Part shown: positions 1-16,900 of the stretch, one piece after another
Position numbering within the stretch: the first letter of the stretch is position 1
How the letters are laid out: each line of letters starts with the position of its first letter
DNA from: a virus
IMG/VR virus record: IMGVR_UViG_3300023278_003141
Span: 1 to 22,515 of that record
Reading direction: 5' to 3' (one strand)
Length of the DNA: 22,515 nucleotides
Program-made: the position numbers and the translations under genes
Notes under the pieces: model-generated
What the model was told of the DNA's origin: nothing
Database searches by the model: none
The model's input: only the letters and a program-made list of their open reading frames with translations

Positions 1-431
1 GCTCAAAAGCTTTTTCTTATTTCAGCGTCATAACAAAAAATTGGTTTATACATCAAGTAAAGAAGCGCGGCAAAAAGAATCGACTGGAAGTAGACATTAA
101 TGAGATGCCAAGAGAGCAAGAATTAAAGCATGTATCTATAGAAAATCCATATCAAGAAAATCGAGAGCATGATGAATTTTTTATATTTTTAAGACAAGAG
201 ATAGACTCTTGGGAACACAAAAATATGAAAGAAAATGAAGAAAAGGTTCTAAATGCAGTTAAAATATTGTTTGAAAGCTCTTCTGATATAGAAATTTTCA
301 ATAAGAAAGCTATTTACCTATATCTAAGAGAGATAACTGGCTTGAATACAAAGCAGGTTGTTAACAACCTAAATAAAATGAGAGTCAAATACAAAGTTTT
401 TAAAAAGAAGTGGGAGATGGGAGACTTATGA
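1..431 (+). CDS. Late-transcription sigma factor, T4 gp55-like (5' end outside the window)
   Basis: The reading frame is open from base 3 to the stop at 429-431, with no stop upstream, so this is the C-terminal ~142 residues of a longer protein. The visible N-terminal segment reads AFSYFSVITKNWFIHQVKK and aligns by eye with the T4 gp55 stretch around HAYITQACFNAFVQRIKK: an aromatic/Y core, a spaced F, then a lysine pair. That part of gp55 is its sigma region 2-like core, which binds host RNA polymerase and melts late promoters. A charged linker follows, then a C-terminal helical block (about the last 60 residues, containing NKKAIYLYLREITGLNTKQV) that looks like a helix-turn-helix. An ATG at 105 exists, but it lies inside the continuous frame, after the sigma-like motif, so it is not the likely start. 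The gp55 identity rests on recalled sequence similarity. Another small phage sigma-like protein is the main alternative. Confidence 0.62.
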   Translation, partial: SKAFSYFSVITKNWFIHQVKKRGKKNRLEVDINEMPREQELKHVSIENPYQENREHDEFFIFLRQEIDSWEHKNMKENEEKVLNAVKILFESSSDIEIFNKKAIYLYLREITGLNTKQVVNNLNKMRVKYKVFKKKWEMGDL

Positions 432-727
432 AAAACCTCGATCATTATCTAAAAGATGCTATAGATAATATAAAAGAAGATCGTGAAGTTACACGAGAAC
501 TTCTAGATGATGTCATGAGGTACCTCTCAAAGTCAGAAGAACACCATCGTTCAGTTGGTCCTGTGGCTGCAAAATATGTTGAAACGTTACAGCGCTCAAA
601 CGAACAGTTAGTTAAGGTCTCTACGATTATCCAAAAACAACAACAAGGAGAGACTGGATTGTCAGATGATGACAAAGCAGATATCTTTGACATGCTTCAG
701 GGAAAAGACGCGGATGAGCAACAGTAG
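428..727 (+). CDS. Small charged helical protein coupled to the sigma gene, function unknown
   Basis: The gene encodes 99 residues starting at ATG 428. This start overlaps the upstream stop as ATGA, and a GGGAG at 419-423 sits just before it. A GTG at 410 in the same frame would add six residues but overlap the sigma gene further, so I prefer 428. The protein is hydrophilic and almost entirely helical by appearance, with a conserved-looking core (VGPVAAKYVETLQRSNEQLV) that could form a coiled coil. Its tail is acidic with a small hydrophobic cluster (DKADIFDML). I do not recognise the family with certainty. Two ideas fit: a gp33-like late-transcription co-activator, suggested by the sigma neighbour and acidic-hydrophobic tail, or a small packaging/terminase-type helper. 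Neither is shown by a diagnostic motif. Confidence 0.75.
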   Translation: MKNLDHYLKDAIDNIKEDREVTRELLDDVMRYLSKSEEHHRSVGPVAAKYVETLQRSNEQLVKVSTIIQKQQQGETGLSDDDKADIFDMLQGKDADEQQ

Positions 728-1328
728 CTGGAAACCAAATATTTTTGAGCTGAATCCTCACTCAAAAGATTCTATGGGCGAATATGATAGAGCCGCTGAT
801 GCTGATGGGATAGATCCGCTATATAAGGTTAGGGTTGCTATTAATGGATTTTATGAAGAAAAAAATAAATTAAAAAAAGAATCATCATGGAAAGCTATAT
901 GCTTACATTCTCATGTTCAATATTTTGATGATTTAAAGTCATATTCATTGGCTTCTGTTTTTAATAAAGAAGATGTGGGGGTAATTGTCGTTATAGCTAG
1001 AATTCCTGAACTTGATTCTATTATTCCATTTCCAGACATAGCTGGAGAATCACAGAACTTATCGGATCTATCAGCCAAACACCTCACCATGCACAGAAAA
1101 TTTACAAAAAGAATTGAAAGCCAAAAAGACATATCAACAATACCTTCTCCTGGTGACATCATTGAGGTCGACTTCGAGGGCGGTTCGCATTTAACTGGGA
1201 TTCCAATTTATTTGGGTATTTATGAAAGAGGTATCGGGATTATCCCAGATGGAAACAGCAGTGTTGATTCTGGAAAAGATGCTTTCTCTAGCAACGGCAA
1301 CGTCAATACATTAGATGGAGTATCTTAA
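714..1328 (+). CDS. Probable baseplate hub component with an OB-fold-like core
   Basis: The gene encodes 204 residues from ATG 714, overlapping the end of the previous gene by 14 bases. An AGGGAA at 699-704 gives a plausible ribosome site. An upstream in-frame ATG at 666 would add 16 residues deep inside the neighbouring gene and is less likely. The middle of the protein is rich in beta strands: VGVIVVIARIPELDSIIPFP at about residues 82-101, followed by a linker and then PSPGDIIEVDFEGG with a downstream IYLGIY. A proline-glycine-D-I-hydrophobic-V turn leading into a strand and an 'xYLG' strand is a pattern I associate with OB-fold hub and hub-associated proteins of contractile tails. No lysozyme catalytic signature is visible. 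Position directly before a spike-like gene supports a hub role. The assignment is inferred from fold pattern and context, not firm homology. Confidence 0.5.
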   Translation: MSNSSWKPNIFELNPHSKDSMGEYDRAADADGIDPLYKVRVAINGFYEEKNKLKKESSWKAICLHSHVQYFDDLKSYSLASVFNKEDVGVIVVIARIPELDSIIPFPDIAGESQNLSDLSAKHLTMHRKFTKRIESQKDISTIPSPGDIIEVDFEGGSHLTGIPIYLGIYERGIGIIPDGNSSVDSGKDAFSSNGNVNTLDGVS

Positions 1329-1330
1329 GA

Positions 1331-2221
1331 ATGGGCCTGACAAACAAAAGCAAACCTTCAGTAGACAGAAGAGAGACAGACGAGCAGAAAGCTGCATTAG
1401 AAGCTTCTGAATTTGGTTCTGGAATAGGTCTTAATAATGATCCTAGCTTTGAAAACCTTGTTGTCTTTGATCAAGCTCGCCGTGAAAAAGTACTTTCAAA
1501 TGACGATTCTTATATTGTCCTTGGCGGAGACAGGATAGCCAGTAAAGCCAGTGGTTATGGTGGTAAAGGTCACACCGGCGCACACATGATCGATTTAGTG
1601 GTTGGTAGAAATGATAGCTTAAAGGGTAATCCTGTATTCGCCCATGACGCTGCAAGGGTATATATTTCTCAAAAAACTGATGTTGATCGATCTTTTGGGT
1701 TGGTCGCGGGTACAGTAAAAAATCCAAAAGCTCGCTCTTCTGTAGCAATTAAAGCAGATGGAGTTAGGATCGTAGCTCGCGAGGGAATTAAGCTTGTAAC
1801 TATGGGAAAGGGTACTTTGAATTCTCACGGAAATAAGCTTCAGACTTATACTGGTATTGATCTGATCGCGGGAAATGATGATAGTGAAATGGAGCCGATT
1901 GCCCTTGCCGATACGACGGCTGAAGCAATGATGGCCATAATAGAATTAATAGAAAATCTCAGCAACATGTGTGAAAGCTTTTGGACTGAACAAGTTAAGT
2001 ATAATATTCAGATAGCGTCCCATGTGCATGTGGCGCCCTTTGGTCCAACAACACCAGCGCCAAATCTTGTGACAACCGGAATACAGGCCACAATAAAGGA
2101 TGTTGCAAAATCGGTGGCCCCAATGTATCTTCATCGGGTAAACTGCACACAAACTAAAGTTAATTACTGCAAGCCATACGCACAAAAATTTATTGGAAGC
2201 AGATATAATTACAGCAACTAG
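1331..2221 (+). CDS. Probable baseplate central-spike / hub structural protein
   Basis: The gene encodes 296 residues and starts two bases after the previous stop, with GGAG at 1317-1320 as ribosome site. The N-terminus (about residues 1-35) is charged and looks disordered. The middle contains short beta repeats such as SSVAIKADGVRIVAREGIKL at about residues 136-155, alternating hydrophobic residues with turns, as in the beta-prism or beta-helix part of phage tail spikes. Helical segments follow (AEAMMAIIELIENLSNM), then an HVH motif in HVHVAPFGPTTPAPNL near residues 232-247. HxH followed by GPT-x-P occurs in several tail spike and hub proteins, where the histidines can bind a metal at the tip. 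The position upstream of gp25 and gp6 fits the T4 hub/spike (gp5) slot, although no lysozyme domain is present. Spike identity is inferred from motifs and context. Confidence 0.58.
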   Translation: MGLTNKSKPSVDRRETDEQKAALEASEFGSGIGLNNDPSFENLVVFDQARREKVLSNDDSYIVLGGDRIASKASGYGGKGHTGAHMIDLVVGRNDSLKGNPVFAHDAARVYISQKTDVDRSFGLVAGTVKNPKARSSVAIKADGVRIVAREGIKLVTMGKGTLNSHGNKLQTYTGIDLIAGNDDSEMEPIALADTTAEAMMAIIELIENLSNMCESFWTEQVKYNIQIASHVHVAPFGPTTPAPNLVTTGIQATIKDVAKSVAPMYLHRVNCTQTKVNYCKPYAQKFIGSRYNYSN

Positions 2222-2229
2222 GTATAAAA
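2220..2229 (+). promoter_or_regulatory. Ribosome-binding site of the cysteine-rich giant gene, fused to the upstream stop
   Basis: The bases AGGTATAAAA run from the stop codon of the spike gene directly into the ATG at 2230. The AGG is the only Shine-Dalgarno-like element, so translation probably depends partly on coupling with the upstream gene. The same GGTATAAAAA string precedes the gp25 start at 9896. Confidence 0.5.
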
Positions 2230-5200
2230 ATGGCATTTGATAATCTTAGAAATGTAGAACCATTCATAAAATTAGTAAAAAATCTACTTCAAGAAATTGA
2301 AGGTATAGCTCTTCATGATGAACATAATGTTTCGGTTGCTAACGAAGAGTTGCCAATTAATGATGTGACGGAAGATGGAACACCCTATACGGCTTTAATT
2401 CCGGCGGCTACTAATCTCTGGACAGCGGAAGCACAAGGAGGCATTCCAGAAGTCTGGGCCTCTAAAAATGAATACTTTTTTTCATTGGTTTCTGAGCATG
2501 AGATACCATATCCATATCATACAGTAGCTGCCGAAAACGCCGGCGCGTTAGCTACGGGATTTTCTCTTTCTGGCGAGACAATATGTGATGCGCCAGAGGG
2601 AACATTGCCTATCGGAGAAAGAGCAAGACCATGGCTGGATGTCGGAAAGATAAAAAATGAAATGGATGCTAGCTCACCCTCCGGCGAATCAGGCGTTGCT
2701 CTAAATAAAAATGATGCCGCGGCAAGAATAGAGTTTTTGAGTCAAATATTGAAAATGTGTATCCTTTTACACGAAGGAGACTTCGATCAAGAAAATGCAT
2801 ACATGTTTCCAGCAAACCAAGATTTTAACAATAACGACATAAACACTAGTCCTTCAAAAGTAAGTAATAAAGTTTCACAATATTATTCAGGAGATCCAGC
2901 GGAGCTTCAAGGTATTGGCGTTGCAGCAACTGGTTTTTTAAGCAGTCATGGTAATGCAAGATTTAAATTTACTTCCCAACATAAAGACGGGCATCAAAAA
3001 GAATTAAATATAGATTCTTTTGCCGGATATCCTTCCCTGTTCGGCAGTGCACAACTTATATATGACCAGTTAACAACAGTTAATGACAACCTAGGTAAGT
3101 GGTCTCCAAAAACAGTTTACAATAGTTTAGATGAGCATGCCGGCCCAAATGTGGTTGATGTAGGTAGTCACCCTTCTTCTCTTAATCCTATCGATAGGGG
3201 ATTTTCTGCGATAGGGACATACGGCCCAGATGCAGCGCTCGCACACATTAGGGAAATAAGTATAGATCATGCAGAAGAATATGCAGATATAGGAGTTTAT
3301 AGTTCTGTAGTGTTGGCAGCATTAGAGGCAGCCCCCATTTTTAAGGGTCTGGATCTCGAAGATTTTGATACTACAGGCTATGAGATTGGCGAATCCAAAG
3401 CAATCATAACTCCTGGCTTGAGATGGAATGAATGGGAATGTGTAGCAAGTCTAGAAGGGTTTTTATTTTGGTCAAAAGAGTTAATAGAGCTTTTGACAAC
3501 ATATTACTCTGAATTCGCTCCAGCCCTTAAGGGACTGCCAGTTTTCTATGGCGGCCAAAGTTCGATAATTTATCCAAAACAAGATAGCCCAGTCGACACT
3601 CAAGAACAGATTGAGCTCGAATCAATTCTCGCTGGATACGATGATATTTCTATATTCGATATTCAAACTATGAGCGAAGAAGTGTTTAGGGACACCCTCA
3701 AAGTTACAGAAGATGTTAAAAGGTGGTGGTGTGATCTTTTAAGCATGACAGGCGTAGTGGAATTAGATTGCACAACGCTCACGGCAGAAGACCTTGCGCC
3801 AGAGTCCGCATTTTCCGCTGACATAGCAAAATGTGATCCAGAGCTAGAAGCCGCCGCAGAAGAGGAGTGTGCCACTTGCATACCAGATCCTAACGCTTTC
3901 GTTGTCGACTGGACTACGCTAAATGATGGTGCTTATTTTTTAAATGAGAAAACTTGTGAATATTCTGTTGTAGTAAGGACTAGCGAAGAAAATCCATATA
4001 ATAGTATAGGTGATTTATACTTGGCAGATGAAGTGGTAATCGGCGCACAAAGATTATTAAATGCATACATGAAGGCAGATACTCTAACATACACTGACTC
4101 CAATGGCAATGTATTTGAAGAATCCACAAGTAATGTGATATTTTCAGATGCACTAATTCAGTCTTATTTGGGTTTCTCTATCAAGTCAGAAGAGTTTCCT
4201 CATATACCTTCTGGTGGAATTTATGCCTCTACATCCCCCCTTATAAAAGGAAGAGTTTTAGTAGTTATACCCGCAATTTTATTTAATAAAATACCACAAA
4301 ACTTGGATTCTGTAAGGTCAATTGAGCCTCCGAAAACTGGCGCGGTTGTAAGGTTATTCACTAAAGATATAAACTTTATGGTTAAACAAATTGCCGGCGC
4401 CATGAGGTATTATGCAATAAATTATGCTTCATGGGTATTGTTGGAAAGGCAAGACTCTGGAGAAGACTATGGAGAGTTAAATTTAAATGTTCAGGCAGAA
4501 AATCTTGAATTATTTGCAAAAGATATTGAGATATACTTACAAAGCTTTGGGTATACCTTTAGAAGGGCAGAATATTTAGAAATTGGTTTTAACGAAAATT
4601 TAGATCAAATAGAATACATGTTGGTTAATGAGCCAGGCTGCCCACCTTTGCCGTTGATGGTCGACAGGCTGTCAGATGCAGAAAATATACTATATTCTTT
4701 TAGTGGTCGATGGTTTAACAGGAGATCTTTGGCGTATATACAAAGAATTCCCGATATACATAACGATGTTTCTGCTCGCGAGCCTTTGTCGTGGAATGAT
4801 TTTATTTTAAAATATACAGTGGATTTAAAAAATACAACTGAACTCAGTGAGGGCCTACCAGACAGCGCTCTTTATTGCTTGGCAGAGTCTCTTGTTGGTC
4901 CATTTGATGATTTATTAAAAGAAATATCTTTGGATGTTTTAGATCTGCCACAAGCATACGCTGACAAGATTAACAAAATGCTTTGCAGTGGCGACAAGTA
5001 CGACCGTCCAGACATCGAAATGGGAGATTGGGCAGCAATGTCCGAGAGGGCAGCCCTGCTCGCTTCAGAAGAATTCTTCGCCGGCGATGCAATGGTTGAT
5101 GATCTTCCACAGATTATAGCTGCGCTTGCCAGCGGAGGAGACGTTAAGGCTCTCTGGAAAGAGGTTTTTAACAAGTATGATTGGTGTGGGTGGCTAGCAT

Positions 5201-8200
5201 TAATAGATATGTTGTTAGGCTGTTTACTTAAAGGAGTGCCGGCCGCAGATGGTATAGCGATAATGGTGGAAGCTGCCCTTCGGGCCCTTCCTGATGATGG
5301 ACTACAGAGGCTATTTATAGGTCTAACACCAGAACAGCAGAATCAAATAGCAGCACAGGTTTCCGAGTCACTGGGGATAATTGCAGCCACTCCTCCATGG
5401 GAAAAAGAGTATGCAACTGGAACAAGCTACAGTACAGGTGGTACCAAAGAAAGTACCCCGACCATAACAGAAATATCAATCGAAAATGGTAAAAATCTTT
5501 GGAACCCCAATAATCAGCCAACTTCAGACTGGAACCCACAAGATACATCAGATGTCTATAATTATAGATCGACCCTCGATAGTGGTGATGAACATTACTT
5601 GTCCTCTATAGAAGGTCAGCAAGAAATGACATCTCTTTATCCATTTTTAGGGCCAGACCCTTTCGCACAATCAGGAATGGGAACGATTGCTACAGGCCTT
5701 CAAGATGTTGGCGAAGTAATAGTTAGTGCCTACAAGGATGCGATTCTAGGCACCATTGATACTGACGCGCTTTTGGGTCTATTAAATACACTACCAGGTG
5801 CTGAAATTCTTAGGACGACAATTTCTGCCGTAGACTGCGCAATACCTCCACTTTACGATCCGCCTTTGGATTCTTTTTTTAAAGATGTCGAAATGGATTT
5901 CTGCCGCGGCAACATATGTTTCGCTTCTTGTTTGCCGAAACTTCAAGGATTTAATATACCATCAAACTTGAAAGATATTTTGATGGAAGCGCTCCTTGAG
6001 GTGATCGAAAAACTAGTAGTTCAGGCTCTAATTAAGATAGTTTATACTATCATAAAAATGCTTCTGGATGCGCTCTGTAAGGCCCTTGGTGCCATTGGTG
6101 CCGCCGTTGAAGGCGCTATCACTGGAGATTTTCACGAGGCGTTTAAGGATGTATTCTGTAGTGAAGACATGTCCGATAAAGATATCGACGAGGCCGCAGT
6201 TGGCATGATTGCTGCCTTGAATGGTTGCGATCCAGAAATTTTGAGAGCAGTGGCTTCGGAGTTTGTATCTGATTTAACGCTAATTCTCACAGATCAAGAG
6301 CTTGTAGACCTTCTCAATGGAGATGCTGGTCCGACAACACTTGGCAAGATTGTGGAAATTGCAAAACTAATATATCCAGATACTTTTGGAACGTGTGATG
6401 GGTTCTCAAATGTAGAGGCTGCATCTCTAACGTTTTCCACTATTGGAAAAGTAGTTCCATCTAAATACAAAAATATAACACAGCCAACGTGTGGCCCGCT
6501 ATTGCCGTCTCTGTGTGAACCTTCTGCTTTACAAGAGTGGGAAGATTTGCAATGCTCTTTGCTACAGGAAAATAAAAGTTTAAGTTTGGAACAATGCACT
6601 GAGCAGTTAGATAACTTAAGATCAAGAATAAAACAAGACATATCCCAGTTGGCTCGTGTTGCCCATGAGGGGTTCATTGACATACCGGATATTATATCTG
6701 ATTCTGCTTATGGAGATCCTTGTGATGTAAGTAGTATTTTGCCATCTTCTGACCCTTCAACGAATGCGTTAATAGGTGAAATAACAAGCGGAATGTTTAA
6801 GACACTTAATTTACAACACACTCATGACATGACCAGCAACCAAGGTATTTTTAGTAGGGGTGGCATATTCAATATGATACTTAGCAATAAAAGGGGGAGA
6901 GGATTTGAGTCACATATGAAACAAGTTATGGACGAAAGAAAAAACCTTTTTCCGGAAAGAGTAGCTGGATATCTACAGGATTCTTATTTTAAAACGGGAG
7001 ACATGATATCAGATTCTTTTTCCACCTCTGAAGAGGAATCAAACCGCCCAAGCGTTTGGGGAGTTGATTATCCTAGAAAATTTAGGGTGTGTGATGTTGA
7101 TGTCTCTACAGAAAAGCTAGAAGAATACTCTTATTCAAGCCTGCAAAAACCTTTGTCTGCTTTACCGGGATATTTTGAGTATACTGGCTTCGGACAATCT
7201 GCGGAAATAGAGCAGGAGAACTTTTTAGAAGTATCAAAAAATCCAGATCTGACACTTAAATATGAAGACTACTTCGATGACGATAAAGATAGATACAAGT
7301 TTGATATGGAATATCACAACTTTCAAATAGTAGATGGAAAATCTGTGCTAAATGATTACTATAAGGTTAGAATTCATGAAACAGCTGAAACAACGGGTGA
7401 CGGAGATTTCGGTTCTTGGGTAGGTATTTCTGGTGAGCAATTGATGGAGTCAGAGGTGGCTTCATTAATATCGGAAGCAGAACAAGGCACAATAAATCTT
7501 AATATAGATGAATACCTTTCTGATAAAAAATCCCCCAAGAATTCTATATATGCTAAATATATTATGGAAGTAATTTCTGAATTGGAAGGGGATAAATCTT
7601 CTACAAACTTAAATGACTTCTTTGATGGCTTTTATGGACAATACGATGAAATATTTGAAAAATATTTAAGGCTATTTTCAAGTCGACTTGCTGATGATTC
7701 GAATCCTGCATTTGCCCATGGATTCCCAACGAGCTACGATTTATCCGAGCTTGATGAAGATGAAGAATATGATCCGTCCGCCGACTTCCCAGTGCCAGCA
7801 AAAGTATATTTAGATCAGACTTATAAAAACATATATACTGGAGAAAGCCAACCAATCCCCCCAGAGTCATATGGCGGCACCGCGGATAATCCTGCTTGGT
7901 TTATAACCCCTCCTGTTTTGGGTGGTGTTGCTGGGGTTCTTCAAGCTTTCGTTCCTTCCGAAGTTGGTTGCAAGCCAAGAAGATCTCCTACATGTGATTT
8001 CGAACAGCTTTCAGAATTATTTGATGAATACTATGATAAATTAAAAGATGATCCAAGATTGCAGCAAAATCCATCATGTGCCTCCGAGCCTCCATGGAGC
8101 AAAATATTAGATCGTTCAGCGCAAGCGGGAACGGAAACACTCATAAGGGCAATTATCAGAATATATTCTGTTGAAGCTATTATATCTGGCTTGCCGTCCT

Positions 8201-9882
8201 TTGCAGTCTTCGAGGGGAAAGTTCCAGAAGTCTTTGATGAATCTTTGATAGATTACATAATTGACATGATAGAGGAAGGCTTGTTGGAACAAAAAACAGG
8301 TTTCTTCTTGAGAAACTTATTTACAGATCCTAACTCATTTTACTTTTCCTTTATGGAGCAAATAGTTCAAAGCTACGGCCGACGTGTTGATCTTGGGGAG
8401 ATAGTGCCAAGCGAGGCAGAACAGCAAGCCGTTAATAGAATAAATCAATTGCAAGACAAATGGACTAAATCTATTGGACCAATGTTGGCAAAGAACGCTT
8501 GGCCCGGTTCTATGGCCGCAGGAATAATGGCGGCAGTGGCCAGTCCGTTTGGAGATTTGGCATCGGCAGCTGGAGCTTTGCTTGGCGAGAGTGTTGCTAC
8601 CGCTGGGAAGCTAAAGGAGAAATGGTGGTATTCTTTTGTTGGCAACGATCAAGCCTTGGAAGACACAAGAATACTTATGCGTAGGTATGTAAAAGATGAA
8701 CTTAGGTATATTTTAGAAGGACTAAAAGAAGATTTACGTCCACCAATTTCAGACTTACATAATGTATTTTTAGTTAATAGCGATTTCATGATAGGCTCCC
8801 TCGATTCAGGCGGGCCATTGGATGTGGCTAGTGTGGTTGACGGCATTGTTGATACTGAAAAGTTTGATGCTGCTGTTGGAGACTTTGCTGGAAATGGTGT
8901 CGACGATGTTCCGTTTGTTTTAGAGAGGTATGTGAAAATAATAGATAAGCCTTTGGAGACTATCGCGCAAGATTTTGGTGGCACTGGATTTGGAGCACTA
9001 TCAGCAGATTCTATTTTATCACAGAATTTGTCCGATGCGCAAAAAAATATATTAGAAAGAAATGACATACCTGCGCTGCAAGACTTTATAAACTTTGATG
9101 ATTTTAAAAATTATATTTTAGACAGTCCGGAAATATTCACAGAAGGTTCCAGTCTTTCAAATTACTTTGAAAGTTTAGAATTTGGGATAAGAATTTCTAA
9201 AATTTCTCACGCAATGACGGAGGAAGAAAAGACAGAGAATCCTGATGCAATTGACGAGTATTCAATGCTGCAAGACAAAATTAAAGGTGGAACTGCTGAT
9301 GCGGTTCTTAAAAATAAAGCATTTAATCTTGGTAATCACATTTTAATTCCTATGTGTTGGACATCTAAAACTAGTGATAATTTGGAAAACAATTCTATAA
9401 CAGATATAGCTAATAATTTAGATGGGTATTTTAACGCGGAGCTAGATTGTTTGGTTGCGGATCTAATAGAAAGCCCTAGATACAAATTGTTGTTCGATTA
9501 TGCAATTTCAATGAAGAGAATGGTTTCCCTTCTTACTATTTATACTATGAAGTCATATATTCCTTCTGTTGGCTCGAAAGAGTATGATGATTGGAGTAAG
9601 GATGGCGGAAAATTTATCTGGTTTAACTCTGGATTTAAATATTGGGATCGTCAATCACACTTTGAAAGATCTAAAAGGCTATCTAGAAACATGTTTATGT
9701 CTTACTACAATTCGCAACAATTTGATTGGTCACCTGGAGATACGGGCAAAGATAAGTCAACTTTTGGTTTTGATATTAACATTGGTATCCCGTTCAACCT
9801 TTTCTGGTGGATATCCAGAATGCAAAGGTTCCAAGCCCTCGATTCAGAAGGGAATCCTTGTGCCCTGAAAGAAGAAGATTAA
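2230..9882 (+). CDS. Giant (2550 residue) cysteine-rich putative virion protein, family not recognised
   Basis: A single uninterrupted frame lies between the spike-like gene and gp25, so a virion or baseplate-associated role is inferred from position only. I recognise no enzymatic domain. By hand I count 34 cysteines, including CATC near residues 546-549 and CRGNICFASC near residues 1225-1234; neighbouring structural genes are nearly cysteine-free. Three stretches are hydrophobic or small-residue rich and could be buried helices or membrane-active: about residues 978-1020, 1255-1297 (LVVQALIKIVYTIIKMLLDA) and 2089-2135 (Ala/Gly-rich, SMAAGIMAAVASPFGDLASA). A very acidic linker (ELDEDEEYDPSAD) sits near residue 1840. 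The protein starts with an amphipathic helix (VEPFIKLVKNLLQEIEG) and ends in a charged KEED tail. Alternatives are a tape-measure or ejected protein, or a baseplate scaffold. As a tape measure it would imply an exceptionally long tail. The reading frame is certain; the function is open. Confidence 0.75.
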   Translation: MAFDNLRNVEPFIKLVKNLLQEIEGIALHDEHNVSVANEELPINDVTEDGTPYTALIPAATNLWTAEAQGGIPEVWASKNEYFFSLVSEHEIPYPYHTVAAENAGALATGFSLSGETICDAPEGTLPIGERARPWLDVGKIKNEMDASSPSGESGVALNKNDAAARIEFLSQILKMCILLHEGDFDQENAYMFPANQDFNNNDINTSPSKVSNKVSQYYSGDPAELQGIGVAATGFLSSHGNARFKFTSQHKDGHQKELNIDSFAGYPSLFGSAQLIYDQLTTVNDNLGKWSPKTVYNSLDEHAGPNVVDVGSHPSSLNPIDRGFSAIGTYGPDAALAHIREISIDHAEEYADIGVYSSVVLAALEAAPIFKGLDLEDFDTTGYEIGESKAIITPGLRWNEWECVASLEGFLFWSKELIELLTTYYSEFAPALKGLPVFYGGQSSIIYPKQDSPVDTQEQIELESILAGYDDISIFDIQTMSEEVFRDTLKVTEDVKRWWCDLLSMTGVVELDCTTLTAEDLAPESAFSADIAKCDPELEAAAEEECATCIPDPNAFVVDWTTLNDGAYFLNEKTCEYSVVVRTSEENPYNSIGDLYLADEVVIGAQRLLNAYMKADTLTYTDSNGNVFEESTSNVIFSDALIQSYLGFSIKSEEFPHIPSGGIYASTSPLIKGRVLVVIPAILFNKIPQNLDSVRSIEPPKTGAVVRLFTKDINFMVKQIAGAMRYYAINYASWVLLERQDSGEDYGELNLNVQAENLELFAKDIEIYLQSFGYTFRRAEYLEIGFNENLDQIEYMLVNEPGCPPLPLMVDRLSDAENILYSFSGRWFNRRSLAYIQRIPDIHNDVSAREPLSWNDFILKYTVDLKNTTELSEGLPDSALYCLAESLVGPFDDLLKEISLDVLDLPQAYADKINKMLCSGDKYDRPDIEMGDWAAMSERAALLASEEFFAGDAMVDDLPQIIAALASGGDVKALWKEVFNKYDWCGWLALIDMLLGCLLKGVPAADGIAIMVEAALRALPDDGLQRLFIGLTPEQQNQIAAQVSESLGIIAATPPWEKEYATGTSYSTGGTKESTPTITEISIENGKNLWNPNNQPTSDWNPQDTSDVYNYRSTLDSGDEHYLSSIEGQQEMTSLYPFLGPDPFAQSGMGTIATGLQDVGEVIVSAYKDAILGTIDTDALLGLLNTLPGAEILRTTISAVDCAIPPLYDPPLDSFFKDVEMDFCRGNICFASCLPKLQGFNIPSNLKDILMEALLEVIEKLVVQALIKIVYTIIKMLLDALCKALGAIGAAVEGAITGDFHEAFKDVFCSEDMSDKDIDEAAVGMIAALNGCDPEILRAVASEFVSDLTLILTDQELVDLLNGDAGPTTLGKIVEIAKLIYPDTFGTCDGFSNVEAASLTFSTIGKVVPSKYKNITQPTCGPLLPSLCEPSALQEWEDLQCSLLQENKSLSLEQCTEQLDNLRSRIKQDISQLARVAHEGFIDIPDIISDSAYGDPCDVSSILPSSDPSTNALIGEITSGMFKTLNLQHTHDMTSNQGIFSRGGIFNMILSNKRGRGFESHMKQVMDERKNLFPERVAGYLQDSYFKTGDMISDSFSTSEEESNRPSVWGVDYPRKFRVCDVDVSTEKLEEYSYSSLQKPLSALPGYFEYTGFGQSAEIEQENFLEVSKNPDLTLKYEDYFDDDKDRYKFDMEYHNFQIVDGKSVLNDYYKVRIHETAETTGDGDFGSWVGISGEQLMESEVASLISEAEQGTINLNIDEYLSDKKSPKNSIYAKYIMEVISELEGDKSSTNLNDFFDGFYGQYDEIFEKYLRLFSSRLADDSNPAFAHGFPTSYDLSELDEDEEYDPSADFPVPAKVYLDQTYKNIYTGESQPIPPESYGGTADNPAWFITPPVLGGVAGVLQAFVPSEVGCKPRRSPTCDFEQLSELFDEYYDKLKDDPRLQQNPSCASEPPWSKILDRSAQAGTETLIRAIIRIYSVEAIISGLPSFAVFEGKVPEVFDESLIDYIIDMIEEGLLEQKTGFFLRNLFTDPNSFYFSFMEQIVQSYGRRVDLGEIVPSEAEQQAVNRINQLQDKWTKSIGPMLAKNAWPGSMAAGIMAAVASPFGDLASAAGALLGESVATAGKLKEKWWYSFVGNDQALEDTRILMRRYVKDELRYILEGLKEDLRPPISDLHNVFLVNSDFMIGSLDSGGPLDVASVVDGIVDTEKFDAAVGDFAGNGVDDVPFVLERYVKIIDKPLETIAQDFGGTGFGALSADSILSQNLSDAQKNILERNDIPALQDFINFDDFKNYILDSPEIFTEGSSLSNYFESLEFGIRISKISHAMTEEEKTENPDAIDEYSMLQDKIKGGTADAVLKNKAFNLGNHILIPMCWTSKTSDNLENNSITDIANNLDGYFNAELDCLVADLIESPRYKLLFDYAISMKRMVSLLTIYTMKSYIPSVGSKEYDDWSKDGGKFIWFNSGFKYWDRQSHFERSKRLSRNMFMSYYNSQQFDWSPGDTGKDKSTFGFDINIGIPFNLFWWISRMQRFQALDSEGNPCALKEED

Positions 9883-9895: not shown

Positions 9896-10432
9896 ATGAA
9901 AGGAATTAGCGCAGCGCTTCCATTAAGTACCGATGGTGTTGATGGGCCCTATACTTTAAATAAAAACATTTTAGAGGTCGCCAGACAAAACTTAAAAGTT
10001 TTATTTTTTACTAATCCTGGAGAAAGAGTATTTAATTCTAAATTTGGGGTGGGATTGAGAAGAAATTTATTTGAAAATAATACTTTATCACTACAAACAA
10101 GCATTATATCTCGCATAAGAAGTCAGGTTGGCTCATACCTACCATATATCGATATACTTGAAATTAATATTATTTCTCCACTAACAAACCCCAATATGGA
10201 TGAAAATTCTATATCATTAATTTTTACTTATTCAGTGAATACCACAAAAAATTCAGAAACTTTGTTTTTAGATTTGGGCGGTAAAGGTGGCCTATCAATA
10301 GCAGCTCCGCAACAATTACAAAATAAATTTGGTAATTTTATTTCTGGTGCTCCCAGCTCTGGTCGGACAGCCAATGGCGGTTTTGTACCTTGGGATCCAG
10401 GTAAATTTTCAGTAATAAATGTTCCTTATTAA
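9896..10432 (+). CDS. Baseplate wedge protein, GPW/gp25 family
   Basis: The gene encodes 178 residues. The family core is clear: an N-terminal region that sets up a helix (NILEVARQNLKVLFFTNPGE), then RVFNSKFGVGLRRNLFE at about residues 46-62, followed by a helix and LPYIDILEINI. The TNPGER-x-x-N-x-x-FG-x-GL-R-x-LFE pattern is diagnostic for the GPW/gp25 family, whose T4 member gp25 forms the inner wedge with gp6 and gp53 and helps start sheath polymerisation. T4 gp25 is 132 residues. Here an extra C-terminal tail of about 45 residues, rich in Gly, Ser, Ala and Gln, extends past the last core strand (TLFLDLGG). It is followed, after a 50-base gap, by gp6, the known partner. Family assignment is firm; the tail's role is unknown. 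Confidence 0.94.
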   Translation: MKGISAALPLSTDGVDGPYTLNKNILEVARQNLKVLFFTNPGERVFNSKFGVGLRRNLFENNTLSLQTSIISRIRSQVGSYLPYIDILEINIISPLTNPNMDENSISLIFTYSVNTTKNSETLFLDLGGKGGLSIAAPQQLQNKFGNFISGAPSSGRTANGGFVPWDPGKFSVINVPY

Positions 10433-10482: not shown

Positions 10483-12285
10483 ATGGCAAATAAAAAGACA
10501 TCATTCAATTATACAAGTCGAGATTTTGATACCATCAAGACAGATTTGGTAAAGTATGCACAAAGATACTATCCGGATATTTATAAAGATTTTGGTGATG
10601 CATCTTTTGGTTCTCTTATGCTTGATTCTGTCGCCTATGTCGGAGATGTCTTATCTTTCTATTTGGATTACCAAGCGAACGAAAGCTTTCTAGAAACAGC
10701 TACAGAGTACGATAATGTACTGAAAATAGGCAATAACGTAGGCTATAATAATCCTGCCGATGGTACAGTAGGTTCTGTCGGAGAACTTGATCTTTTCGCA
10801 ATCGTTCCAGCAAATGACACTGGTTTAGGTCCTGCCACCGAGTATATGCCTGTATTGGAAGCCGGCGCTGTTATTACTTCAAATGGGGGAACTTCTTTTA
10901 CTTTAGAAGAGGATGCTCGCTTTGATTATTCTAAAAATCAAGTTGTTGTTGCTAAAGTAAATGATTCTACTGGTGTGCCAACTCACTATGCAATAAAAAC
11001 TACAGGCACTGTAGTTTCTGGCATCATAAGAGAAGAAAGCATATCTGTTGGAAGTTTTGAAAAATTTAAAAAAGTAAAACTAGGAAGCAACGCCATTTCA
11101 GAAGTTATAAGTGTTTTTGATGATTCTGGAAATGAATATTTTCAAGTAGATTATCTGTCCCAGAATGTGCTATATAAAGATGTTGCTAACAGGGGTACCG
11201 ATAAAGACAATGCTCCCTCAATACTAAAACCATTTATAGCATCTAGAAGATTCGTTATAGAAAAATCATCGAACTCAACGCATTTAGTTTTTGGATATGG
11301 CTCCGAGTCAGAACTAACATCTTCTTCCGTTGCAGACCCTTCTTCAATCGCCTTACAGAGGCATGCAAAAAAATATGTATCGGATGAGGCCATAGACCCT
11401 TCGAAGTTCTTATCTACTGATAAGTTTGGCATCGGCCCATCAGATACAACTCTGACAGTAAAATATAGAATTAATAATTCCAATACTGTAAATGTATCAA
11501 CAAATTCTTTGGTAAATATTTCACAAAAAAATGTTTCTTTTGCTGACAGAACAGCATTAATAGATAGCAAGGCTTCCGAGGTTACTAATTCTATTGAAGT
11601 TAATAATCCTAATCCAATAGTTGGTTCGGTATCACTACCAGACACTACAGAACTAAAAAGAAGAATGATTGATTCTTTTGCGGCGCAAAACAGAGCAGTT
11701 ACTGGACAGGACATAGAGTCTGCTGCGTACTCTATGTCTAACAAGTTTGGCTCCATAAAAAGGTGCAAGGTTGTCAGGGATTCAAGTTCTTTGAGAAGAA
11801 ACCTAAATCTTTATGTATTATCAGAAGGTACTGACGGAAAACTTTCTACTGCATCTCAATCTTTAAAAGAAAATTTAAAAGTATGGCTAGGCAAGGGTCG
11901 CATGATTGGAGACACCATCGACATATTAGATGGTAAAATAGTTAATATTGGAATAGAGTTTACTATAGTAGCAGACTCATCGATGAACAATTATGAAGTT
12001 CTTAGTGACGCACTTTCAACCTTGAAAAATGAATTTTCTGTACCACTATATATGGGAGAACCTTTATATATAACTGACATATATAATATTCTTAATAAAA
12101 ATGTGTCCGGAGTAGTTGATACAAAATCAGTTAAAGTTTCTTTAAAATCAGGCAACAGTTATTCGGGCGTATCTTTTGATTTAGAGTCCGCAACATCTGC
12201 TGATGGCCGATTCATAGAAGTGCCACAAAATGTTGCTTTAGAAGTTAAGTTTACAAACTCGGATATCAAAGGGATGGTTGAGTAA
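10483..12285 (+). CDS. Baseplate wedge subunit, T4 gp6-like (Baseplate_J-type)
   Basis: The gene encodes 600 residues, near the 660 of T4 gp6. The N-terminus holds the typical entry motif, NYTSRDFDTIKTDLVKYAQR at residues 8-27, then the DFGDASFGSLMLDSVAYVGD block and DYQANESFLETATEYDNV. This pattern is shared by T4-like gp6 proteins. The second half has FAAQNRAVTGQDIESAAYSM at about residues 399-418, the conserved core where the J-like domain begins, followed by alternating helix/strand units up to the C-terminus. gp6 forms the ring of dimers that links baseplate wedges around the hub and partners with gp25 and gp53, so the gp25-gp6 neighbourhood strongly supports the call. The stop overlaps the next start as TAATG at 12283-12287, indicating translational coupling. 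Confidence 0.93.
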   Translation: MANKKTSFNYTSRDFDTIKTDLVKYAQRYYPDIYKDFGDASFGSLMLDSVAYVGDVLSFYLDYQANESFLETATEYDNVLKIGNNVGYNNPADGTVGSVGELDLFAIVPANDTGLGPATEYMPVLEAGAVITSNGGTSFTLEEDARFDYSKNQVVVAKVNDSTGVPTHYAIKTTGTVVSGIIREESISVGSFEKFKKVKLGSNAISEVISVFDDSGNEYFQVDYLSQNVLYKDVANRGTDKDNAPSILKPFIASRRFVIEKSSNSTHLVFGYGSESELTSSSVADPSSIALQRHAKKYVSDEAIDPSKFLSTDKFGIGPSDTTLTVKYRINNSNTVNVSTNSLVNISQKNVSFADRTALIDSKASEVTNSIEVNNPNPIVGSVSLPDTTELKRRMIDSFAAQNRAVTGQDIESAAYSMSNKFGSIKRCKVVRDSSSLRRNLNLYVLSEGTDGKLSTASQSLKENLKVWLGKGRMIGDTIDILDGKIVNIGIEFTIVADSSMNNYEVLSDALSTLKNEFSVPLYMGEPLYITDIYNILNKNVSGVVDTKSVKVSLKSGNSYSGVSFDLESATSADGRFIEVPQNVALEVKFTNSDIKGMVE

Positions 12286-13943
12286 TGGGCATTAAAAAAT
12301 TTACTGCAATAGCAGACGCTACAATCACAAATGCTTTCAAGCCTGATTTGGCAACCAGAGGCACCGGCGCTAACACGGGGCTTGCAGATTCTTTGGAAGT
12401 ATTTTCTATATATAATCAGGTAAGCGGAAACGTGTCTGGATCTTCACAAGAGTTATCTAGAGTGTTGCTTAAGTTTCCAGTTACGACGACGGACGACTCT
12501 ACTAATTCAATACAGGCGCAAAGAACTGCTGGCAAGATACCAAGTAGTGGAAGTGTTAATTTTTTCCTCCGTCTTTATAATGTTAAACACCACGCTACTC
12601 TTCCAAGAAATGCAAAATATAATATTTTCGCTGTGTCATCTTCTTGGGAAGAAGGCACAGGAATTGACCTAGATACTTATGAAGATATCACCAGAGATGC
12701 AGAGGGCACAAACTGGATTTTTAAATCAAGTGGTTCAACTTGGCTTAGTCCCGGTGGCGACTACCACACTGGTACGTCGGGCTCTAACTATTTGAGCGCC
12801 GATACAAATAATATTGGTGTAATGTACAGTCAAACTTTGGAACTAGGTCCAGAAAATATTGAGATTGACATTTCTGAACTGGTTGAGCAATGGGTAGCAG
12901 GAATTAAAAATAATTATGGAGTAGGGGTTTTCCTTACTGGTACCCAAGAAGCATACTATTCTTCTTCTACCGGCGCAGACCTTCCTTCGTGGAATGGCGG
13001 CGTTAAGCATCACCCTACTGGTGCACTAAAGTCTTTCTTTACTAAAAAGTTTTCATCACGAAGTTCTGAATACTTTTTTGGCCGGCCAGTAATTGAGGCT
13101 CGATGGGACTCAACTGAAAAAGATGATAGAAATAATTTTTATTTTAGCAGTTCATTGGCCACATCAGCAGAAAATTTAAACACTCTTTATTTGTACAATT
13201 ACTTCAGGGGCGCTCTCCGTAACATTCCTAGCATAGGAGAAGGAAATATATACGTTAGTGTATTTTCGGGATCTACGGAAAACACTGAACCAACAGGATC
13301 CGCCCTTGTTTTGGTAACAGATGGCACACATGTCACATCTGTTAACACTAGAGTGGTTACAGGCGGCTATGTATCTACGGGAGTATACACTGCTAGTTTT
13401 GCTTTGACAGCTGGAAGCACTCCAGTGTCTTCTGCTTTCGACGTATGGTTTAGTGGAAGCGGCGATATTGAGTCTCTTGGGTATACAGCGGAGGAAGGTG
13501 TGCAAATGCAAACTGGATCTTTTGCTCCAAAAAGTATAGAAAATACTAACATAGCTCCAGCAACAACATTTGCTAGCAATATAGTGAACTTGAGATCGAT
13601 TTATTCCAGAAGAGAGGCAGCTCGATTTAGAGTATATACTCGTCAAAAAAATTGGAATCCATCAATATATTCAAAAGCAACGGTTGCAACCGAGCCTTAT
13701 GTTATAGAAAGTGGGTCATATAGAGTGTATAGGGTCATTGATGACCTAGAGGTGATTCCACACGGAACAGGTAGCAATAGGCATACAGAAATGTCTTTTG
13801 ACGCATCCGGAAGTTATTTTGATTTTGATATAGACATGTTACAAGCCGGCTATTCTTATGCAATAAAATTAGCTTTCTACAACGGCTCAGTGGGGGGATG
13901 GGTTGAACAACCGGAGACATTTAAATTTAGGGTAGAAGAATAA
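12285..13943 (+). CDS. DNRLRE-like (CBM-like) beta-rich virion protein after gp6
   Basis: The gene encodes 552 residues, coupled to gp6 by TAATG. The N-terminal half matches the DNRLRE/CBM96-type layout: an opening ATITNAFKPDLATRGTG (cf. the 'd-t-y-i' strand followed by a nested small-residue loop), SRVLLKFPV at about residues 59-67, FFLRLYNVKHH near 89-99, and SSSWEEGTGIDLDTYEDITR near 117-136, ending with TNW. These domains usually bind polysaccharide or decorate surfaces. The C-terminal half is beta-rich with Ser/Gly/Thr repeats and finishes in strands GYSYAIKLAFYNG and FKFRVEE, like a fibronectin-type sandwich. I see no cysteine in it. In T4 this slot holds gp7; no gp7 similarity is visible. 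A peripheral baseplate or fibre-attachment role is inferred. The domain call rests on pattern memory. Confidence 0.65.
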   Translation: MGIKKFTAIADATITNAFKPDLATRGTGANTGLADSLEVFSIYNQVSGNVSGSSQELSRVLLKFPVTTTDDSTNSIQAQRTAGKIPSSGSVNFFLRLYNVKHHATLPRNAKYNIFAVSSSWEEGTGIDLDTYEDITRDAEGTNWIFKSSGSTWLSPGGDYHTGTSGSNYLSADTNNIGVMYSQTLELGPENIEIDISELVEQWVAGIKNNYGVGVFLTGTQEAYYSSSTGADLPSWNGGVKHHPTGALKSFFTKKFSSRSSEYFFGRPVIEARWDSTEKDDRNNFYFSSSLATSAENLNTLYLYNYFRGALRNIPSIGEGNIYVSVFSGSTENTEPTGSALVLVTDGTHVTSVNTRVVTGGYVSTGVYTASFALTAGSTPVSSAFDVWFSGSGDIESLGYTAEEGVQMQTGSFAPKSIENTNIAPATTFASNIVNLRSIYSRREAARFRVYTRQKNWNPSIYSKATVATEPYVIESGSYRVYRVIDDLEVIPHGTGSNRHTEMSFDASGSYFDFDIDMLQAGYSYAIKLAFYNGSVGGWVEQPETFKFRVEE

Positions 13944-16900
13944 TGGCAATTCGTGATTTATTTAAGGGCGACGTCGCCACTTCTAAAGCCGCGCCAACTA
14001 AAGCGGAAACAGTTGATAGTATATTTGGCGCCGAACAAGGCACAAATGTGGAATCTGCCGAAAATGTCGCAGAAAAGATAAAACAAAAAGATAGGTTTGT
14101 CCCTGATGTTGATTTTTCTACGGCCTCTAACTTTGCTAGGTTTGGATCGGCTGAAGAATATTACAGAAGCTCAATTAAAAGAGTTTATCAGCAATATCCA
14201 TATGATGGCTCTGAAGCTGAAAAAAACAAATTTAGAAATCAATCAACTTTTTTAGATCTTTATGTATTAGATAAGTTGTATCCCTCTTCCACCGGTTACG
14301 CAGTTTTTGCTCCGTCTGGGTGGGGAGATCAGGGATCTACTGTTGGTGGTTGGGGCTCTCCATCCTCTAATGAGTTTATTGCTATCAAGGGTGGCCCACA
14401 TACATCATCTGGGGGCTTGATTGGGGAAGACCTGTATAAAGCCTTTGATGAGCCTATAAACAGGACTAGTCCCAATTCTAACACATATGATGAATCAATA
14501 TATGATTCTGCTGGTGTTTTGAGTGGCGACAGGGTTGGCTCTAACGAGTCTAATCTTAAATTTGATCTGTCCAAGGGAGTTTCTACGGAGTTTTGGCTCA
14601 AGAAAGGAGATTGGATAACCAGTCTGACCGAAAAAGAGGTCATATTTGATTTATGGAACGGAAAAGCCTCATCGAGCGCCGATTACGGCCGCTTATTAGT
14701 TTTTGTTTCTGGCACCGGCGTCGAGACACTTGGCGCAAATCCTTTCAGGGTTCACCTAGCTTCTGGTAGCGAATATTGGGACATGTCTTTTGGCGGCTCT
14801 ACTCACACAACATCATCACTTTCAAATGCTTGGAAGCATGTTGCGTTTACATTCTTGTCAAGCTCTGAAGATTCAGAACTGCAAGCAAAATTTTATATAG
14901 ATGGAGATCTTCAGTCTACAACTGGAACAACTCATATAGTTAATTTTGGAGAAATAACTGGTTCACTGATCGGTTATCTTGGAGCACTACAAACTACTCC
15001 TTCTGGAAATTTATATCACGGAAAGAGTATGACTGGCGACGGAAAGCTTTCCGGCTCTATCGATGAATTTAGATATTGGAAATCAAAAAGAACATCAGAA
15101 AATATTGGCCAAAATTGGTTTACTCAAGTCGGCGGTGGTACCAATGAAGATGTAGCAAATGCAGAGCTTGGCGTATACTTTAAGTTTAATGAAGGTATCG
15201 TAGGTGCGACCACTAGTGATTCTGTGGTTCTGGATTACTCTGGTAGGATCTCTAATGGAGACTGGACTGGATACTCTTCGGCATCAAGAAATACAGGCTC
15301 TGCTATTGTATCTGCTAGTGCAGCGGTAGAAGAATTTGAAGATCCAATAATATACTCTACTCACTCTGATGTTGATTCTTTGCTAACAAGAATGATAGCA
15401 TCTGGCGCTGCTTGGGACAACCAAAACAATTCACGATTCGCTTACAATCTGCCTTCATATATTTTAGAAGAAGACGAAGAATCATCAAAAGATGTCTTAT
15501 ATTTGACTCAAATAATGTCAAGCTACCTAGATGATCTTCATTTACAAATTGATCAACTATCAAATATTTCTCACAATAATTATTTTTCAAGCGGCTCAAG
15601 GGGTCTTCCGTTTGTCGACAAGCTACTGACCTCTAAAGGTTTCGTGGCTCCAGATATGTTTGGCGATGCTGAAATACTAAACATTATTGGCAACAGAGAC
15701 GAAGATCGTAATTTTGAGTTAGAATTATATGAAGTAAAAAATAAAATTTATCAAAATGTATATAACAACTTAAGTTATATTTTAAAATCAAAAGGTACCG
15801 AAAAGTCATTTAGGAACTTGATCCGCTGTTTTGGTGTCGATGAAGACCTAATAAAGATCAATCTATATTCTGATAATGGCACAACTACATTAAAGAATAA
15901 TTATAGGTTAAAATCTACAAAGAAAAGATACGTTAATTTTAATACTCCCACCAATAATACGGCATCTGTATATCAGCAATCATCCAGCGCGGATTCGAAC
16001 ACCACAGATGTGACATACATATCAGGTTCAGATGAATTACAGTATTTGGCGAACACAGCTGAAATTGAAGTAGTATTTCCCAAGCAGTTCCCGACAGATC
16101 ATAATGCTTATGTTGGTACATCTTTTCAGAGTTCTTCAATCTTCGGACACCACACGGCCTCAAACCAGCCAAATGCTTTTGAGTGGCCACCTTCTGGTGT
16201 TGATTTTAACTTTGAGTTGTATGCAATTAGACCAACTACCGACGATTCAGATGCATATTTTGTAATAAAAGACCGGGCCGGAAACTTTACATTATCAAGT
16301 AGTTTATACAATAATGTATATGAAGACGAAAGATGGAATTTTGCAGTTAGAGTTAAAAATGATAAGTTCCCTATAGGTGGGCTTGTTACTGGATCTTCCG
16401 GATCAGCCAGTGGACATAATGTTGTTACGCTGGAGTTCTATGGAGTTAATGTAGTATCTGATATTGTAAAAAATGAATTCCTTCTTACAGCGTCATCTCT
16501 TGATAAAAGATACTTGACCGGTCACCGCCGTTATTATGTGGGAGCAAATAGAACAAACTTCAGCGGCGCCGTAGTTCATAACTCGGACGTTAAGGTGTCT
16601 TCTTTGAGGCACTGGGGAAGCTATTTAGAAGATTCTGATATAAGGGAGCATGCAATAAATGCTGAATCTTATGGTGCACCAAATCCATATAAAAGCTCAT
16701 ACCAGCTTCAGGGAGTGTTGTCTTCCTCTAATGTACCGCAGATTGACACACTAGCTCTTAACTGGGATTATTCTGAAGTAACTTCTTCAAATGATAGTGG
16801 AGAGTTTACGGTAGAGGACTTCTCTTCCGGCTCCCTTACCGCCGGCAGGAGATATCCTGGAACCTTTGGCGCCATCGTTGGAAACTTATATTCTGGCCGA

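Follow-up and report, generated by a model that had tools for sequence, protein, structure and literature searches.

Conserved cysteines in a giant protein encoded among baseplate genes of an uncultured virus suggest disulfide bonding in a contractile phage tail

The results of this work suggest, from sequence comparison, that cysteines conserved amid a changing sequence mark a phage particle held together by disulfide bonds. The protein concerned is the product of a giant gene in an uncultured virus (IMG/VR record IMGVR_UViG_3300023278_003141, positions 1-22,515; this whole stretch of 22.5 kb is called the window), and its feature beyond chance is the conservation of 19 cysteine positions, which a reading of the single sequence could not show. 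The account we favour, with reasonable though far from full confidence, is that the giant is a clade-specific protein of a contractile-tail baseplate, and that it would be oxidised after lysis into mostly intrachain disulfides stapling, or locking, that baseplate.

The genes on which this placement depends are:
3..431 (+), a late-sigma-like protein cut to its C-terminal part, whose complete counterpart in the sister contig L002 matches phrog_234, late sigma transcription factor
666..1328 (+), a 220-residue protein, in a slot that holds a protein of 350-680 residues in relatives
1331..2221 (+), a spike-like protein of 296 residues, read as a spike by eye and found directly 5′ of the giant in relatives too
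2230..9882 (+), the giant, 2550 residues with 34 cysteines, lying between spike and gp25 and member of a family absent from the catalogues
9896..10432 (+), baseplate wedge gp25 (PF04965, E = 8e-10; phrog_261, E = 1e-14)
10483..12285 (+), baseplate wedge gp6 (phrog_10646, E = 8e-19; also PHROG 219), with 30-52% identity to relatives
12285..13943 (+), a DNRLRE-like protein of 552 residues and no cysteine
13943..22513 (+), a second giant of at least 2857 residues, with 6 cysteines and a laminin-G-like domain (PF13385, E = 1e-6), running off the end of the window

The ORFs 5′ of the giant also include a gene of 105 residues, beside those of the late-sigma-like, 220-residue and spike-like proteins. 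A preliminary description of this DNA, made without database searches, had set the giant inside a baseplate operon, and the downstream matches of gp25 to PF04965 and of gp6 to the wedge PHROGs 10646 and 219 bear it out. Where contigs suffice, the order across the clade is sigma, small gene, OB/hydrolase gene, spike, giant, gp25, gp6, DNRLRE and second giant, and throughout the related clade the giant's slot, from the spike-like gene to gp25, holds an ORF of ~1300-3200 residues. The spike-like protein matched no Pfam or PHROG family. The second giant is probably a wedge or adhesin protein, its place being comparable to that of P-SSM2 gp7. In the relatives L007, L014, L017, L019, L020 and L022 the pre-spike protein carries, by eye, C-terminal motifs like those of peptidoglycan hydrolases (HLHFE/HLHFGV, HVHI), and such a domain seems absent from the 220-residue protein of the window. 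In L002, positions 2088-6714, 5′ of the sigma gene, encode a phosphoheptose isomerase-like protein, an aminotransferase and two nucleotide-sugar epimerases.

Relatives of the giant were gathered with gp6, and then the giant itself, as bait in IMG/VR, which returned more than 200 loci; the giant's patterns led to 361 stretches confirmed as related, and the best 80 of the 361 were kept. A profile search recovered 138 ORFs of the family, and phmmer, HMM and hhalign establish its homology across the clade. These relatives, more than 100 in number, are contigs of uncultured viruses throughout, with no phage isolate among them, apart from one MAG fragment, a short contig filed under a Flavobacteriales bin and too weak for host assignment. 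No psbA, a sign of a cyanobacterial host, was found in 16 larger contigs of the clade. Searched by tblastn, neither 50,697 phage records nor plasmids gave a meaningful match to the giant, the sole phage match being a tape-measure protein at E = 4.

The giant likewise matched nothing in Pfam and PHROGs, in agreement with the earlier view that its family could not be placed, and four relatives matched no PHROG. A lone match of one relative to CCDC28 (E = 0.0018) was taken as chance. Profiles of the family found nothing among PDB sequences, and Foldseek found nothing in the PDB at E <= 0.001 for two regions modelled with AF2, region A (mean pLDDT 65, pTM 0.61, a moderate model) and region B (residues 1500-2550, pTM 0.82). 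Such a match, if strong and to a known family of tape-measure or baseplate proteins, could have overturned the preliminary description; none appeared in Pfam, PHROGs and PDB folds. No fold match points to a baseplate function, and the placement in the baseplate comes from gene order. In BFVD region B matched A0A516M7H3 (E = 2.6e-28, TM 0.62) and A0A1B1IUZ9 (E = 4e-5), two viral proteins without a name which, judging by these models, are probably members of the giant's family.

Similarity to the relatives begins at about residue 532 of the window's protein. The preceding part may be described as follows:
2230..3819 (+), N-terminal extension, residues 1-530, present in the window and in its 93%-identical sister L002, with 5 of the 34 cysteines and none of the conserved set

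A phmmer search with residues 1-528 matched L002 only, with which an alignment of five sequences agrees. The giants of L107, L088, L167 and L171 have N-terminal extensions of their own, of 200-380 residues, with no detectable similarity to residues 1-530 of the window, and the N-terminus appears to be a variable module. Giants of the A9 type (~2000 residues, same slot) share ~290 columns with the N-terminal core at a profile-comparison probability of 99%, and nothing with the C-terminal half by the same comparison. The A7 proteins of ~350-430 residues, which occupy this slot in more distant phages, were considered as homologues and dismissed, as hhalign found none. In L089 (8699-11929 and 11863-16809), L150 (9485-14629 and 14581-15639) and also L238 the giant is read as two ORFs, which could reflect a frameshift, a gene that is truly split or an error of sequencing.

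A recount of the ORF at 2230-9882 gave 2550 residues and exactly 34 cysteines, as first reported. This content, 1.33% (34/2550), is ordinary in absolute terms, as T4 has 0.9% and the disulfide-rich phage Milano 1.4% (Sonani et al. 2024, PMC10811340), and is high only against the operon neighbours, so that the epithet ‘cysteine-rich’ does not hold in absolute terms. The second giant has 6 cysteines in 2857 residues, low as had been noted though not the ‘about 7’ of the hand count; the DNRLRE-like protein has indeed none in its 552 residues, gp25 none and gp6 one. Over relatives the median content is 1.14% for the giant versus 0.0-0.6% for gp25, gp6, DNRLRE, spike and second giant, a comparison that leaves out the sigma and 220-residue genes. 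The clustering of cysteines, remarked on earlier, is to be given up as evidence: neither the spacing of all 34 nor the named clusters depart from what random placement would give (P 0.2-0.7). Two of the three cysteines in CRGNICFASC (1230 and 1234) are present in none of the 78 relatives.

What does set the cysteines apart is their persistence. The window's protein and 78 relatives were aligned (79 sequences), with a median identity of ~22% to the window and of ~38% between pairs. Conservation of 90% or more is reached by 76 of the 2021 columns in all, but by 19 of the 29 cysteines in the region that the sequences share (hypergeometric P ~1e-21, assuming independent columns). The 19 are residues 535, 547, 550, 576, 804, 883, 919, 986, 998, 1203, 1225, 1283, 1310, 1429, 1498, 1914, 1950, 2407 and 2544. 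When the N-terminal half is aligned by itself (68 sequences), ten of its 12 invariant columns are cysteine. Among the conserved positions are:
3832..3957 (+), N-terminal block C535, C547, C550 and C576 (C-x11-C-x2-C-x25-C), part of the family core
7969..8079 (+), C1914 to C1950, kept in 76/78 and 78/78 relatives, inside AF2 region B
9448..9450 (+), C2407, kept in 77/78
9859..9861 (+), C2544, kept in 72 of 76 occupied positions

Within the N-terminal block C550 and C576 are found in all 78 relatives, and C535 and C547 in 73 of 78. The second giant, over ~2800 residues, has just two well-conserved cysteine columns, the neighbouring virion genes have few or none, and a hub-like protein of the large relative G001 has a few. 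Near-invariance in a family only ~22% identical to the window supports the view that the cysteines matter; and, 19 being an odd number, at least one core thiol would be left unpaired or joined to a subunit next to it.

Covariation says nothing about the partners of most core cysteines, because these are invariant. Partners can be sought among those that vary, and three features carry the argument:
6520..6669 (+), predicted helical hairpin, residues 1431-1480, carrying C1442-C1456; relatives have 1438-1460, one helical turn further from the loop
4876..4878 (+), C883, lost with C1310 in L231 and L171
6157..6159 (+), C1310, covarying partner of C883

Cysteines stand at both 1442 and 1456 in 33 sequences and at both 1438 and 1460 in another 31, and no sequence has both pairs; one more has a cysteine at 1460, and its other one adjoins a gap in the alignment by position 1438. 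With the hairpin cysteine columns left out of tree building, 1442 changes 10 times, 1456 changes 10 times and the two change jointly 10 times, the whole hairpin trait accounting for 12 changes. AF2 places helices at fragment residues 907-925 and 929-956, that is 1431-1449 and 1453-1480 of the window's protein (local pLDDT ~80), with the inner pair adjoining the loop and the outer pair one turn off on both helices, and this modelled geometry is the one required of a disulfide bridging the antiparallel helices of a hairpin. As for 883 and 1310, both losses within the 79-sequence set are joint, in two unrelated lineages. By covariation, then, the cysteines of the hairpin and of 883/1310 behave as bonded pairs would. 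Cysteines at 960 and 1275 appear together in 56 of 60 cases, and 1203 and 1429 were lost together once, the covariation coming in either case from one or two tree events. Over distant members the topology read from covariation is ambiguous, with few events, and pair calls are uncertain for the most divergent ones. The preliminary description would have been refuted by a prediction of scattered, buried and unpaired cysteines, and the facultative ones do not vary independently of one another.

The larger contigs of the clade (G001-G016, n = 16, of which G001 has 195 kb) show what else the tail is made of. A sheath is present in 12 of the 16, i.e., the tail is contractile, and in one of them the genes next to it include:
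L267 11365-14013 = G001 171365-174013, (-) in L267, candidate tape-measure protein of 883 residues, adjoining sheath and tube
L267 5389-9744 = G001 165389-169744, (-) in L267, hub-like protein of 1452 residues and 15 cysteines, after the tape measure

The 883-residue protein, with a coiled-coil-like start (by eye), eight hydrophobic segments, no cysteine and homologues in 12 of the 16 contigs, is the probable tape measure of the clade. In the hub-like protein positions 1139 and 1435 are cysteine in 12 of the 17 aligned rows of relatives. The sheath of G001 has 0.27% cysteine, and its tube-like protein and tape measure 0%; with these three almost without the residue, the cysteine chemistry is concentrated in one protein. 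Glutaredoxin-like genes scored over the cut-off in 10 of the 16 contigs and thioredoxin-like genes in 8. A search of the same contigs for the sulfhydryl oxidase Erv1/Alr gave no match, which is uninformative as the control gave none either.

The sequence of events that we envisage is the following. The giant would be a structural baseplate protein of one clade of uncultured T4-like myoviruses, translated from a late baseplate operon beside the spike, gp25 and gp6 genes, the gene order being observed. It would presumably fold and be assembled with free thiols in the reducing cytoplasm, and would be oxidised after lysis, when disulfides, mostly intrachain, may form among its conserved cysteines and staple the mainly helical chain. 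From covariation, one staple would cross the hairpin 1431-1480, as C1442-C1456 here and as C1438-C1460 elsewhere, and a second is probably C883-C1310. Any cysteine left over could be free or linked to an adjacent subunit, in the way that the Milano baseplate is cross-linked. The likely role of the whole would be a covalent lock that keeps the baseplate stable outside the cell until infection, comparable to the baseplates of Milano and Pam3, for which functional disulfides have a precedent. A bolder version, in which a widespread clade gathers the redox chemistry of its virion in this one protein and ~10 disulfides and at least one interchain cysteine form a lock set by oxidation, reduced and movable during assembly, fixed outside, and reduced again at the host surface to allow contraction, is speculative and on balance improbable.

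Metal binding was one of the two functions first proposed for the cysteines, together with disulfides formed after release. Their importance is upheld by near-invariance; between the two functions, paired gain and loss favours the disulfide. Most of the conserved cysteines, e.g., C535/C547/C550/C576, could bind a zinc ribbon or an iron-sulfur cluster serving folding or assembly, as in hubs like lambda gpL. The spacing C-x11-C-x2-C-x25-C resembles a four-cysteine site, the set is near-invariant, and a phage hub with a four-cysteine iron-sulfur cluster has a precedent in roseophage R4C (PMC10276861). Against this, variation of the facultative cysteines goes by twos and not by fours, with a swap of one turn on both arms of the hairpin, and since they behave as two-residue units disulfides are the better reading for them. 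Moreover, the conserved set has a single CX2C, no metal-binding family was matched, and C535 is replaced in three relatives that keep the other three cysteines of the block, whilst in five relatives C547 seems lost but may only be shifted by one residue in the alignment. The N-terminal block, to judge from its residues, could still be a metal site, and as an account of most of the conserved cysteines we regard metal binding as a serious but unlikely rival to disulfide stapling.

Less likely still, the giant could be made late and act in the cytoplasm or be injected, as a chaperone, scaffold or enzyme whose cysteines have intracellular roles, rather than being a lasting component of the baseplate. 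It matched no structural family, and the glutaredoxin- and thioredoxin-like genes counted above would fit such roles; yet redox genes are an unspecific feature that large phages commonly have, the position between spike and gp25 is constant, and covariation of the disulfide type is unexpected in a cytosolic protein. Cysteine is generally a slow-changing residue and its content here is ordinary, so that one might ascribe the conservation to slow turnover of buried hydrophobic thiols and the pairing to a lineage artefact. This we think very improbable, given a mean column identity of 0.67 for cysteine versus 0.28 for tryptophan and 0.32 for proline, and given that the hairpin pair switches jointly ~10 times on a tree that ignores it. 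A phage has one tape measure, a long helical protein with hydrophobic segments whose gene adjoins those of sheath and tube. The giant is very long, varies widely in length and has two short hydrophobic stretches, all of which, with its sole phage match (E = 4), would suit a tape measure; this reading was rejected as the least credible of all, because the giant sits in the gp25/gp6 cluster and a separate tape-measure candidate lies by the sheath and tube of G001, with its homologues in 12 of 16 contigs.

If the disulfide account is true, the giant virion proteins gain a family so far uncatalogued, present in hundreds of contigs from the environment and in no phage isolate searched, and locking of the baseplate by disulfides would extend beyond a single Agrobacterium phage and a single freshwater cyanophage. 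The hairpin staple, with its two alternative positions, would be a natural case of disulfide bonding readable from sequence evolution, and it gives a testable prediction on the setting of phage tails after lysis.

Among known systems, the wedge of T4 (gp25/gp6/gp7) shares with the giant's operon homologues of gp25 and gp6, and gp7 of cyanophage P-SSM2 (record 75005-90592) is a precedent for a giant wedge gene. The giant, however, matches no gp25, gp6 or gp7 family at the sensitivity used, and P-SSM2 has no giant before gp25. Lambda gpL and the hub of roseophage R4C (PMC10276861) likewise have conserved cysteines in a tail-tip protein, but there four cysteines serve one metal cluster, whereas the giant has ~19 dispersed ones and paired variation of further cysteines. 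Cyanophage Pam3 is credited with a redox-dependent baseplate mechanism (Yang et al. 2023 PNAS, as described in PMC11598953), and the phage is described as minimal, its baseplate as simple; the clade studied here differs in its giants of more than 2000 residues and in the lack of psbA in the 16 contigs. A further likeness is to Agrobacterium phage Milano, set beside the giant by description, the tblastn search of the phage collection having matched no record. Milano has a contractile tail and baseplate proteins with intra- and interchain disulfides, their cysteines being conserved in its clade (PMC10811340). Both cases have conserved cysteines in a protein of a contractile-tail phage, the baseplate location here coming from gene order alone. 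Cysteines occur throughout the Milano tail, sheath included, and make up 2.1% of structural residues (PMC10811340), whereas here sheath, tube and tape measure are almost free of them and the conserved set is concentrated in the giant.
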